In this document: piece after piece, positions 15,187 through 35,033 of the stretch
Position numbering within the stretch: position 1 is the stretch's first letter
How the letters are laid out: each line of letters starts with the position of its first letter
Assembly: GCA_017516485.1 (NCBI GenBank)
Contig: JAFXCH010000021.1
Coordinates: 62,001-126,000, forward strand
Source: Clostridia bacterium
Lineage (GTDB): Bacteria; Bacillota; Clostridia; Oscillospirales; Acutalibacteraceae
Reading direction: 5' to 3'
Length of the DNA: 64,000 nucleotides
Translations under genes and position numbers: made by a program
The notes under the pieces: model-generated
What the model was told of the DNA's origin: nothing
Seen by the model: only the letters and a program-made list of their open reading frames with translations
The model's database searches: none

Positions 15187-15603
15187 TTATGCAAGTTCAA
15201 TTATATACTTTTCTGCCTTGATTGCCATTTGTTTAAATTCCCACGCGCCACCGAAATTGCGAGTGACGTATGTTACGACAGTGTCAGATTTACCCAGCAT
15301 CCATTTATTGCGGTAGTTGATTGCGAAGCGACGAGGAACGTTTTCTATGCCTTCGGGCAGGATTGTGTGTTCATCGGGAGAGTCATTCTCTCTTGGCATA
15401 TAGGCAAGGACAACATAATATTTTATTGGATAAATCTTTGACAAATCCTCAAACTGTCGGCGCACCATAGCATCAAAATCGCCGTGATTGCCGACATAAA
15501 ATATAGTTGCATTTTTATTTTCAATCAAATCTAACAGAGTCAGTCGCAAGGCCGACTCTATTTCTTTTGGTGCATCTCTGTGACCGAAGAAAGTACATAT
15601 CAT
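15187..15603 (-). CDS. SLOG-fold (DUF1273-like) protein, copy A
   Basis: A 138-aa protein beginning MICTFFGHRDAPKEIE, with FYVGNHGDFDAMV near residue 37 and RNFGGAWEFKQMA near residue 118. The FGHRD start, the G-N-H-G loop and the late Gly-rich NFGGA motif match the Rossmann-like SLOG/YpsA superfamily, thought to bind nucleotide-derived ligands. The function of this branch is unknown to me. A close paralogue lies at 34200-34625. It is transcribed divergently from a small HTH gene, with a tandem repeat and a TTGACC-N17-TATAAT promoter between, so it is probably repressed by that HTH protein. SD GGAGTG precedes the ATG. Confidence 0.8.
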   Translation of the reverse strand: MICTFFGHRDAPKEIESALRLTLLDLIENKNATIFYVGNHGDFDAMVRRQFEDLSKIYPIKYYVVLAYMPRENDSPDEHTILPEGIENVPRRFAINYRNKWMLGKSDTVVTYVTRNFGGAWEFKQMAIKAEKYIIELA

Positions 15604-15624
15604 ATAAACACTCCTGTTATGGGG

Positions 15625-15672
15625 ATTATATCCCCCTTAATAATTAAGATTATAACCCCCATAATAATTAAG
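15625..15672. promoter_or_regulatory. Tandem operator-like repeat, SLOG/HTH module A
   Basis: Two adjacent 24-bp direct repeats (15625-15648 and 15649-15672) that differ at two positions. Each contains ATTATA, CCCCC and TAATAATTAAG. In addition TTATGGGG (15617-15624) is the inverse of CCCCATAA (15657-15664). The block lies between the divergent SLOG and HTH genes and overlaps the SLOG promoter, as expected for an operator. Confidence 0.72.
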
Positions 15673-15677
15673 GTCAA
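15649..15677 (-). promoter_or_regulatory. Promoter of SLOG gene A
   Basis: On the minus strand TTGACC (15677-15672), 17 bases, TATAAT (15654-15649): a near-consensus sigma-A promoter 46 bases before the start codon, fully overlapped by the tandem repeat. Confidence 0.75.
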
Positions 15678-15688
15678 GGAGTGGTTAT

Positions 15689-15892
15689 ATGATTATTTTT
15701 GATAAACTCTGGGTGACGATGAAAGCCAAAAACGTTTCCACTTATTACCTCAGAGAAAAATGCGGTATCGACAGCAAAACAATTCGCAGATTGAAAGCCA
15801 ATGAAAATATCGAAACAAAGACACTTGACAAAATCTGTCAGGTACTTAACTGTAATCTTGAAGATATAGCTGAATTTGTTTCTGAAGAATAA
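15689..15892 (+). CDS. Small Cro/C1-type HTH regulator, module A
   Basis: A 67-aa single-domain HTH protein (LWVTMKAKNVSTYYLREKCGIDSKTIRRLK, then ETKTLDKICQVLNCNLEDIAEF) of the YozG-like type. It is the likely DNA-binding repressor for the divergent SLOG gene, acting on the repeats at 15625-15672. SD AAGGAGTGG is 5 bases from the ATG. The next 426 bases contain no gene but hold a terminator and the hairpin array described separately. Confidence 0.85.
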   Translation: MIIFDKLWVTMKAKNVSTYYLREKCGIDSKTIRRLKANENIETKTLDKICQVLNCNLEDIAEFVSEE

Positions 15893-32565: not shown

Positions 32566-32844
32566 AGCTTATACATACAAAATGCGATTGTTACGGTTGT
32601 TGCGCTCTACGATAAACCGCAGAGCCTGCCTCTGCCCGATATGTACGGCAAGAATCTGATTTTCAAAACAGGCGGTGTTGACGGCTGCGACTGCGACGAA
32701 ATCCTTTCGCTCATCGAGCAGGGCAAGATTGACACAACTCCGCTTATTACCCACCGCTTCGCACTCAAAGATATAGAAAAAGCCTACGAAATCTTTGAGA
32801 ATAAGCTTGACGGTGTAATAAAAATAGCAATTACAGGTGTATAA
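32566..32844 (+). pseudogene. C-terminal remnant of a zinc-type alcohol dehydrogenase
   Basis: From about 32581 the frame reads NAIVTVVALYDKPQSLPLPD, then YGKNLIFKTGGVD, the LITHRFALKDIEKAYEIFEN segment and a normal stop at 32844. These are the last 88 or so residues of a medium-chain dehydrogenase/reductase. No start codon, no cofactor-binding Rossmann part and no catalytic zinc residues remain. The frame begins right after the deformylase stop, so the 5' part has been deleted. A 67-residue ORF from the ATG at 32641 lacks a ribosome site. Confidence 0.85.
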
Positions 32845-34199: not shown

Positions 34200-34625
34200 T
34201 TACGTATGAAATAAATCGAGCACTTTCTTTTGGCTCTTCTCCGCCATCTGTTTAAACTCCCATGCACCGCCGAAGTTGCGGGTGACATAGGTTACGACGA
34301 TATCGGATTTGGTGAGCATCCATTTATTGCGGTAGTTGATGGCGAAACGGCGGGGAACGGTTTCTATGCCTTCGGGGAGAATTGAGTGTTCGTCAGATTC
34401 ATCGTTCTTGCTCGGCATATAGGCAAGGACAACGTAATATTTTATCGGGTAAATCTTTGACAAATCCTCAAACTGACGTCGTACCATAGCATCAAAATTG
34501 CCGTGGTTGCCGACATAAAACACAGTTGCATTTTTATTTTCAATCAAGTTTATCAGATTCAGTCGCAAGGCTGGCTCTATTTCTTTTGGGGTATCTCTGT
34601 GACCGAAGAAAGTTACGGTTGACAT
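34200..34625 (-). CDS. SLOG-fold (DUF1273-like) protein, copy B
   Basis: A 141-aa protein, MSTVTFFGHRDTPKEIE..., about 80% identical by eye to copy A at 15187, including FYVGNHGNFDAMV, YPIKYYVVLAYMP and NFGGAWEFKQMA. It is divergent from an HTH gene and preceded by a TTGACT-N18-TAAAAT promoter framed by two palindromic operators. SD GGAGTG before the ATG at 34625. The frame is open to 34832 but the sequence there is the control region. Probably a ligand-binding or nucleotide-processing protein that is normally repressed. Confidence 0.8.
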   Translation of the reverse strand: MSTVTFFGHRDTPKEIEPALRLNLINLIENKNATVFYVGNHGNFDAMVRRQFEDLSKIYPIKYYVVLAYMPSKNDESDEHSILPEGIETVPRRFAINYRNKWMLTKSDIVVTYVTRNFGGAWEFKQMAEKSQKKVLDLFHT

Positions 34626-34643
34626 AATATCACTCCAAAACAT

Positions 34644-34663
34644 ATTACCCGTAATCGGGTAAT
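34644..34663. promoter_or_regulatory. Operator 1, module B
   Basis: Perfect palindrome ATTACCCGTAATCGGGTAAT, just downstream of the SLOG promoter -10 box on the minus strand. Confidence 0.8.
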
Positions 34664-34666
34664 TGT

Positions 34667-34696
34667 ATTTTACAGGTGATATATTATAAAAGTCAA
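34667..34696 (-). promoter_or_regulatory. Promoter of SLOG gene B
   Basis: Minus strand: TTGACT (34696-34691), 18 bases, TAAAAT (34672-34667), 41 bases before the start codon; flanked by operators 1 and 2. Confidence 0.7.
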
Positions 34697-34712
34697 CCCG
34701 TATTCGGGTAAT
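34693..34712. promoter_or_regulatory. Operator 2, module B
   Basis: TCAACCCGTATTCGGGTAAT, a second copy of the ACCC-N6-GGGT palindrome, overlapping the SLOG -35 box. Confidence 0.78.
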
Positions 34713-34740
34713 AGTTGCAAGATTTGAAGTTATCATAACA

Positions 34741-34760
34741 TTAACCCATAAATGGGTAAT
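34741..34760. promoter_or_regulatory. Operator 3, module B
   Basis: TTAACCCATAAATGGGTAAT, third copy, 21 bases before the HTH start codon, suited to autoregulation of the HTH gene. Confidence 0.78.
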
Positions 34761-34781
34761 TGTTATGATGAGGTGCTTTCG

Positions 34782-35033
34782 ATGGATTACTCTGAAATCT
34801 ATGTAAAGCGTATCCGCAGCCTCTGTAAACAAAGAGGTATCGCAATAAATAAACTTGCAACAATGAGTGATGTCAAACAGTCAACACTTGATAACATTGT
34901 AAGAGGGTTAACAAAGAATCCCCGAGTAAAAACGCTTCATAAGATTGCTATAGCGTTTAATATGACTTTAGCCGAATTTCTGGATTTTGATGAACTGAAT
35001 GATTACTCGTTTGATGACGATGAAGATGATTAA
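34782..35033 (+). CDS. Small Cro/C1-type HTH regulator, module B
   Basis: An 83-aa protein: HTH at residues 5-65 (YVKRIRSLCKQRGIAINKLATMSDVKQSTLDNI, then RVKTLHKIAIAFNMTLAEFLDF) and a very acidic tail (FDDDEDD). It belongs to the same general fold as the module A regulator but is not a close relative. It most likely binds the three TTACCC-N6-GGGTAA sites. SD GAGGTG is 6 bases before the ATG at 34782; the upstream ATG at 34752 lies inside operator 3. Confidence 0.87.
   Translation: MDYSEIYVKRIRSLCKQRGIAINKLATMSDVKQSTLDNIVRGLTKNPRVKTLHKIAIAFNMTLAEFLDFDELNDYSFDDDEDD

Follow-up and report, generated by a model that had tools for sequence, protein, structure and literature searches.

A YpsA-like SLOG gene paired with exchangeable divergent regulators in a Clostridia bacterium and its relatives

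Results

Genes, promoter and palindromes at the locus

We analyzed a stretch of 64,000 nucleotides from a Clostridia bacterium of the family Acutalibacteraceae (GenBank assembly GCA_017516485.1, contig JAFXCH010000021.1, positions 62,001 to 126,000), referred to here as the window, which forms part of contig C34 in our numbering; the genome comprises 2.17 Mb in 65 contigs. In the window, a gene for a YpsA-like protein with a SLOG fold lies divergent to a gene for a small helix-turn-helix (HTH) regulator, and the gap between them contains three copies of a palindrome. The features of the locus are as follows.

34203..34625, minus strand: gene for the SLOG-fold protein, 141 amino acids (aa), YpsA-like, the proposed effector; ATG at 34623-34625
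34645..34662, no strand: predicted operator O3, TTACCCGTAATCGGGTAA, immediately beyond the SLOG -10 element; position kept in class A loci
34667..34672, minus strand: SLOG promoter -10 element, TAAAAT, with an 18-bp spacer, read by eye; same spacing in loci L096, L061 and L118
34691..34696, minus strand: SLOG promoter -35 element, TTGACT, read by eye; most class A rows likewise have TTGAC there
34694..34711, no strand: predicted operator O2, with ACCCGTATTCGGGT at its centre and extending into the SLOG -35 element; position kept in class A loci
34742..34759, no strand: predicted operator O1, TAACCCATAAATGGGTAA, in the HTH leader and inside a longer dyad, ATCATAACA...TGTTATGAT
34782..35033, plus strand: gene for the Cro/CI-type HTH regulator of class A, 83 aa from the ATG at 34782, with Pfam matches

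The two ATG codons are separated by exactly 156 bases, and the 83-aa HTH protein exceeds the Pfam cut-offs for both HTH_3 (40.3 bits; cut-off of 23) and HTH_26 (40 bits; cut-off of 22). Gap and protein length agree with the initial annotation of this DNA, which had also placed three copies of ACCC-N6-GGGT in the gap, at 34644, 34693 and 34741. The sites are real, although they begin at 34647, 34696 and 34744, the earlier coordinates being 3 bases off. Their assignment to the -35 element, to the region past the -10 element and to the region before the HTH gene is likewise consistent with the promoter as read by eye, which sits between the middle and proximal palindromes, the latter beginning ~5 bp past the -10 element. 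The full form of the palindrome is TTACCC-N6-GGGTAA. This layout, in which the HTH gene is divergent and palindromes recur across the promoter of its target, is that of an HTH repressor-operator switch.

Shuffling of the whole window yielded a mean of 0.25 occurrences of ACCC-N6-GGGT, with at least three in 1 of 100 shuffles, and here all three fall within 156 bp. The motif occurs 15 times in the genome, with the other 12 occurrences all located within open reading frames (ORFs) of at least 150 aa. Long ORFs thus account for every other copy in the 2.17-Mb genome, and the three sites appear to constitute a one-locus operator set. A 210-aa ORF that spans them is simply an upstream TTG extension of the SLOG frame.

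Pairing of SLOG with a divergent regulator

The comparative sample comprised 159 matching loci (labeled L), of which 152 were full-length and 129 distinct; 80 of 390 relatives found among genome contigs form part of it. Regulators were detected with profiles seeded with four HTH proteins. Among 124 distinct SLOGs whose upstream DNA spans 300 bp or more, 109 had a divergent HTH gene, nine had only a divergent ribbon-helix-helix (RHH) gene, and six (L107, L021, L035, L058, L084 and L172) had neither. The 109 include L074, counted by hand because a class D HTH is present there; L067 and L087, which have no start, were left out. Among loci L092-L171, a divergent HTH gene was found within 500 bp for 66 of 70 SLOGs as against 2 of the 264 further ORFs that were 150 aa or longer, a comparison that favors SLOG loci in that its profiles were built from SLOG-side regulators. 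The initial annotation, which read the locus as a self-repressed two-gene switch, is partly supported.

Two loci depart from the pair in their own ways. In L107, an apparent class B operator sequence (by reading) is kept and the regulator gene is absent. In L198, a class A HTH gene with all three palindromes is divergent to another HTH gene in place of SLOG.

Regulator classes and their operators

The neighbors of the SLOG family fall into about a dozen Cro/CI-type HTH classes and two RHH classes, as assigned with motif patterns that we wrote ourselves and that left six regulators unclassified. When one representative per class was compared with Pfam, those of B, C, D, E, F, G and I scored above an HTH cut-off, as did class A; classes B2, H, J and K were outside this check. 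For RHH class R1 and one member of RHH class R2, the Pfam families RHH_1 and Arc were above cut-off, and another R2 member gave a weak HicB match.

Each of four classes has its own predicted operator motif, which was present in 13 of 13 class A loci, 18 of 18 class B, 8 of 8 class C and 18 of 18 class D loci, and in none of the loci of any other listed class. The patterns were written after the regions had been read, so that the within-class counts are descriptive, and the test lies in the cross-class zeros and the near-constant spacing. Of the 13 class A loci, 11 contain three or more sites, at successive intervals of 48-50 and 45-51 bp, even though the SLOGs of those 11 (that of the window aside) are only 50-86% identical to the window protein; the exceptions are L064 (one site) and L170 (two). 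The 13 loci were drawn from 15 first called class A; L169 and L171 were set aside, given that an RHH gene lies nearer to SLOG there and that class A sites are absent. An operator at or past the -10 element was also apparent, by reading, in classes B, C and D.

Exchange and stacking of regulators

The regulators do not follow the SLOG phylogeny. On a SLOG tree of 108 tips, whose bootstrap support is not fully settled, 15 regulator labels (14 classes and one label for the five unclassified regulators on the tree) require 59 changes, the least possible number being 14. Different regulator classes accompany 48 of 88 SLOG pairs with at least 80% identity, and there are 261 pairs in which the HTH proteins are at least 75% identical while the SLOGs are at most 60% identical.

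At ten loci (L066, L068, L071, L079, L090, L105, L156, L165, L169 and L171), two or three regulators stand in a row. In the six of these with an inner regulator of class A, B or D (L066, L068, L071, L079, L105 and L165), only the operators of the inner regulator are present at the SLOG promoter; L165 contains one stray class A match 904 bp away. We infer that stacking reflects replacement by insertion next to SLOG. Pairing, class-specific predicted operators, exchange and stacking are each apparent from comparison of the relatives at the level of sequence. In L105, a class A HTH gene that looks decayed lies 396-666 bp upstream of SLOG, behind the inner class B HTH gene.

Family and fold of the SLOG protein

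The window protein is a single 141-aa domain that covers the SLOG fold, and it shares the SLOG/YpsA fold. Its best match in the Protein Data Bank (PDB) by Foldseek was ShosA (E value of 1.5e-4), followed by DprA. Pfam YpsA matched 47 of 64 relatives at an E value of 0.01 or better. Residue D45 is invariant across 64 SLOG sequences, and, by reading of the alignment, the glycine varies in the GxD/E motif of YpsA as given in PMC6459960. Comparison among relatives indicates that SLOG is under purifying selection. The signature of LOG phosphoribohydrolases is PGGxGTxxE, and this motif was not seen in a 13-sequence alignment of the SLOG family. With PADLOC, SLOG had no match at an E value of 1, and HTH gave weak matches of the HTH type alone (best, 2e-6).

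A leader RNA in relatives

In 13 loci with a SLOG-HTH gap of 254-316 bp, a conserved element that varies slightly, TGACCGCTATACACA ... GATAGCGAGGTCA, and a terminator after it stand before SLOG. Searches of the family and the order with leader models gave 8 and 5 matches, three of which were dropped because the motif was absent on reading (L185 and L186 of the 8, and L221 of the 5), leaving ten credible places. A SLOG-family gene comes next in seven of the ten; in L220 it lies about 540 bp on (Pfam YpsA, 60.3 bits), and it is absent in L179 and L182. Four of the ten are in the seed alignment of leader model R1; for the six outside the seed, the corresponding numbers are four next, one about 540 bp on and one absent. 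The SLOG gene after the leader in L039 has an internal stop, and that in L217 is split over two frames, with its downstream part matching Pfam YpsA at 50.2 bits.

A conserved structured leader followed by an intrinsic terminator has the structural makeup of a riboswitch or attenuator. Six of seven folded leaders (three over shortened ranges) were better than shuffles, with z scores of -2.1 to -5.6, and L218 was not (z of 0.9). Pair counts favor the overall structure (96.3% paired), and none of 500 shuffles reached its covariation score, but every double-sided change falls in the terminator helix, and P1 hardly varies. Further pair types were not above shuffles (158 of 500), and outer-stem changes in L184 and L217 were noted by reading only. 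Rfam gave no family over the leader in 14 loci at an E value of 5 or better, and riboswitch and SLOG were not found together in open-license papers.

The leader was not found in the window, for which leader model R1 gave best E values of 0.0084 and 1.1 and leader model R2 gave no match at 0.01. A class-wide search added one further genome as a candidate only, with L294 as one of two matches. Two pattern scans of viral sequences picked out 63 and 9 contigs, with the second-strand motif nearby in one of the 63 and no copy read as true, and blastn of the leader against phages and plasmids found nothing.

Several single loci deserve mention. In L179 (1493-1640) and L182 (1498-1663), an HTH gene is accompanied by the leader RNA and terminator with no SLOG after it. 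In L217 (1489-1656), the leader stands before the split YpsA-type gene, a divergent HTH gene was not seen, and the genes upstream resemble those of a conjugative element. Model R2 gave weak matches in L101 and L103 (E values of about 0.003). In class D loci such as L056 and L066, the second operator has 12 bases, TGACCGCTATAC, in common with the 5' strand of the leader RNA, which may reflect common origin or chance. A NiCo riboswitch is present above the gathering score in L111 (2632-2717).

Other copies in the genome and the insertion site

The window contains a second pair, and a gene beside the first pair marks its insertion site.

15187..15603, minus strand: second SLOG copy within the window, 138 aa, 83% identical to the first
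15616..15674, no strand: predicted class C operators of the second copy, TTATGGGG / CCCC(A/T)TAATAATTAAG repeats, a pattern in 8/8 class C loci and absent from the other classes listed
15689..15892, plus strand: divergent class C HTH gene of the second copy, 67 aa; HTH_26, 62.5 bits
35079..36272, minus strand: flanking oxidoreductase gene marking the insertion site, with a close orthologue in the six genomes read

Downstream of the oxidoreductase gene, a class A HTH gene and SLOG are found in the window genome (G000), and a class I HTH gene and the RNA in G001; neither is found in G002, G003, G006 or G007, where other genes follow. A third, distant SLOG of the same genome (G000:C9:73658-74107), 36% identical, has its own divergent class G HTH gene.

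Discussion

Proposed mechanism

We think it probable, on the basis of sequence comparison, that the locus is a two-gene cassette in which a YpsA-like SLOG protein is held off by an exchangeable local repressor. The HTH protein would bind the three palindromes and repress both the SLOG gene and itself, with O2 blocking the SLOG -35 element, O3 lying at the SLOG start point and O1 in the HTH leader; we infer direct binding, and repression rather than activation. In relatives, repressor-operator cassettes would replace one another at the SLOG start. Removal of the HTH protein by a signal would release SLOG, which, going a step further by analogy with its fold relative YpsA, may bind a nucleotide-type ligand and inhibit growth when in excess, such that derepression would serve as a conditional brake, for instance on infection or stress. 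When YpsA is overproduced, cell division and colony formation are inhibited (PMC7376506, PMC6459960), which is the closest experimental parallel for a need to keep SLOG off. YpsA-like SLOGs are predicted to take ligands of the nucleotide or ADP-ribose type (PMC9503650), and the idea of a nucleotide signal, put forward in the initial annotation, is plausible but unproven.

Several results weigh against this reading. The window SLOG scored 20.1 bits against Pfam YpsA (PF06908), under the gathering cut-off of 27.7. When labels were shuffled on the SLOG tree, a mean of 78.4 changes was required, and 0 of 200 shuffles was as low as the 59 found; exchange of regulators is therefore frequent but not free, the labels being clustered yet far from following the SLOG tree. 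Avoidance of cross-talk is not supported as the cause of exchange, in that 4 of 21 pairs of same-genome copies were alike in class versus about 2.5 expected (a hand estimate from class frequencies, with unclassified copies left out). The class A HTH also occurs away from SLOG: its 29 matches in 250 genomes comprised 11 beside SLOG, 12 without it and six not assessed. Clustering of 590 ORFs from 121 loci revealed no third gene common to the loci, the largest cluster covering 10 of them. Finally, activators are known among the XRE regulators of counter-oriented genes (PMC10432266).

Alternatives and known systems

The pair might act in abortive infection, with a phage product removing or binding the HTH repressor and SLOG then acting on a nucleotide (NAD or cyclic ADP-ribose) to stop growth. 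We regard this as possible, if on the unlikely side. A link of YpsA-like SLOGs to the sensing of cyclic ADP-ribose and to systems of conflict has been described (PMC9503650), some relatives have defence-like genes nearby, and the SLOG group is patchily spread, with members in 47 of the 250 genomes from the family (E value of 1e-25) and 3 of 299 genomes of a phylum sample (1e-20), the window genome included in both. Against such a role, none of the 36 window ORFs of 170-700 aa matched PADLOC at 1e-15 (a small control of a single place), SLOG and HTH fared there as described above, no third gene is conserved, and many relatives are located among metabolic genes. ShosT, the partner of ShosA, is a phosphoribosyltransferase toxin encoded beside the SLOG gene. 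ShosA and DprA resemble the window protein as its closest PDB fold matches, and membership of ShosTA was rejected: the divergent partner here is an HTH protein rather than such a toxin, SLOG is a single 141-aa domain, and the PADLOC results for SLOG and the window ORFs were negative at the thresholds given. Thoeris ThsA is a SIR2-SLOG fusion, whereas the window protein has no SIR2 and consists of one domain.

A more elaborate possibility, which we hold tentatively and think fairly unlikely, is a two-layer silenced system for the SLOG genes of this order, in which the exchangeable repressor-operator cassette is joined, in one branch, by a new class of structured leader RNA with an intrinsic terminator, which would read a small nucleotide-type signal of the kind that SLOG would handle; this RNA would also accompany HTH alone and precede other SLOG subfamilies in other bacterial families. 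If confirmed, the leader would provide the first handle on the SLOG ligand.

It is unlikely that the pair is a selfish or mobile element whose repressor confers immunity to incoming copies, although repressor turnover would be explained in this way. In phage immunity regions, repressor and operators change together beside conserved genes, and the exchange described here resembles that joint change; here, however, no phage genes were seen, the payload is the SLOG gene, and the regulators change in fold as well. At a single site, the six relatives differ in whether the module is there, altered or missing, and regulators are stacked. TnpV-like genes are the commonest neighbors (10 of 121 loci, nine read as such and one an odd long ORF; the two tested gave 128 bits for Pfam TnpV), lying within about 3.5 kb of SLOG in L094, L101-L104, L109, L113, L115, L116 and L155, and a resolvase-type recombinase gene is near L100. 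On the other hand, the pair itself contains no transfer gene, and the TnpV-like genes are found near only a few loci and at no fixed distance. Viral contigs yielded four distant SLOG relatives. An origin in phages or plasmids was rejected, given that tblastn matched 1 of 50,697 phage records (27% identity) and two plasmid records (32-34%). By fold, 33 viral models matched SLOG at an E value of 0.001 or better, the best being a DprA-like phage protein with 24% identity.

The HTH protein might instead be an activator, or switch with a partner, turning on the counter-oriented SLOG as output upon a signal, as do modules of a transcription factor and a small ORF (TF-smORF) in prophages; we consider this decidedly unlikely. 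XRE factors that activate a counter-oriented small gene have been published (PMC10432266), and O2 abuts the -35 element, a possible activator position. O3, in contrast, lies directly past the -10 element, as operators do (by reading) in classes B, C and D, which is the classical place for repression, and regulators of another fold (RHH) occupy the same place. The TF-smORF modules share with the present system a set of dissimilar factors that follow one logic with a small neighboring gene, specificity being set by the module; in those modules (PMC10432266), the factor is an activator whose output protein disables a phage repressor, whereas here there is one conserved output family and the sites look repressive.

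That SLOG is a plain LOG-type metabolic enzyme with a substrate-responsive regulator is quite improbable: the LOG signature was not seen in the aligned family, and the regulator is little more than an HTH domain and is freely exchanged. A toxin-antitoxin system, in which HTH would neutralize SLOG by direct contact in addition to repression, is highly improbable; the module is small, of two genes and patchy, with operators over both genes, but type II systems are co-directional operons and these genes are divergent, and the pairing of closely similar SLOGs with regulators of different class, or even fold, hardly allows direct contact between HTH and SLOG.

We therefore return to SLOG as the conserved product of a probable repressor-controlled cassette. 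Its nearest named relative is YpsA of Bacillus subtilis (PDB 2nx2, PF06908), from which the window protein differs in falling below the Pfam cut-off and in the variable glycine of the GxD/E motif; PMC6459960 describes coupling of ypsA with gpsB, whereas SLOG here has a dedicated divergent regulator. An arrangement of SLOG with exchangeable regulators was not found described in our searches of open-license papers. That an effector is conserved while its regulators are replaced time and again, even by ones of another fold, points to its silence mattering more than the signal that lifts it, and suggests that the SLOG product has to stay firmly silenced until a signal comes. The relatives also provide about a dozen naturally occurring regulator classes, of which four have defined operators, with which to probe the trigger and action of SLOG, an open question for the YpsA branch.

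Neighboring genes

The second commonest neighbor cluster is deformylase-like (7 of 121 loci). In L113, L115, L116 and L169, SLOG pairs adjoin genes that look defence-related by reading (HATPase, C5 methyltransferase, AbiH-like, type I methylase). A PADLOC scan of the 100 flank ORFs nearest to SLOG among 209 candidates gave SoFic, type I and II methylases, type II restriction enzymes and GajB among the 25 families listed of 112, the output counting families rather than proteins. In the window, positions 32641-32844 encode, by reading, a 67-aa COOH-terminal piece of a zinc alcohol dehydrogenase; a longer relative of this enzyme is encoded directly beside SLOG in L018, and the area around the window piece has thus probably been rearranged.
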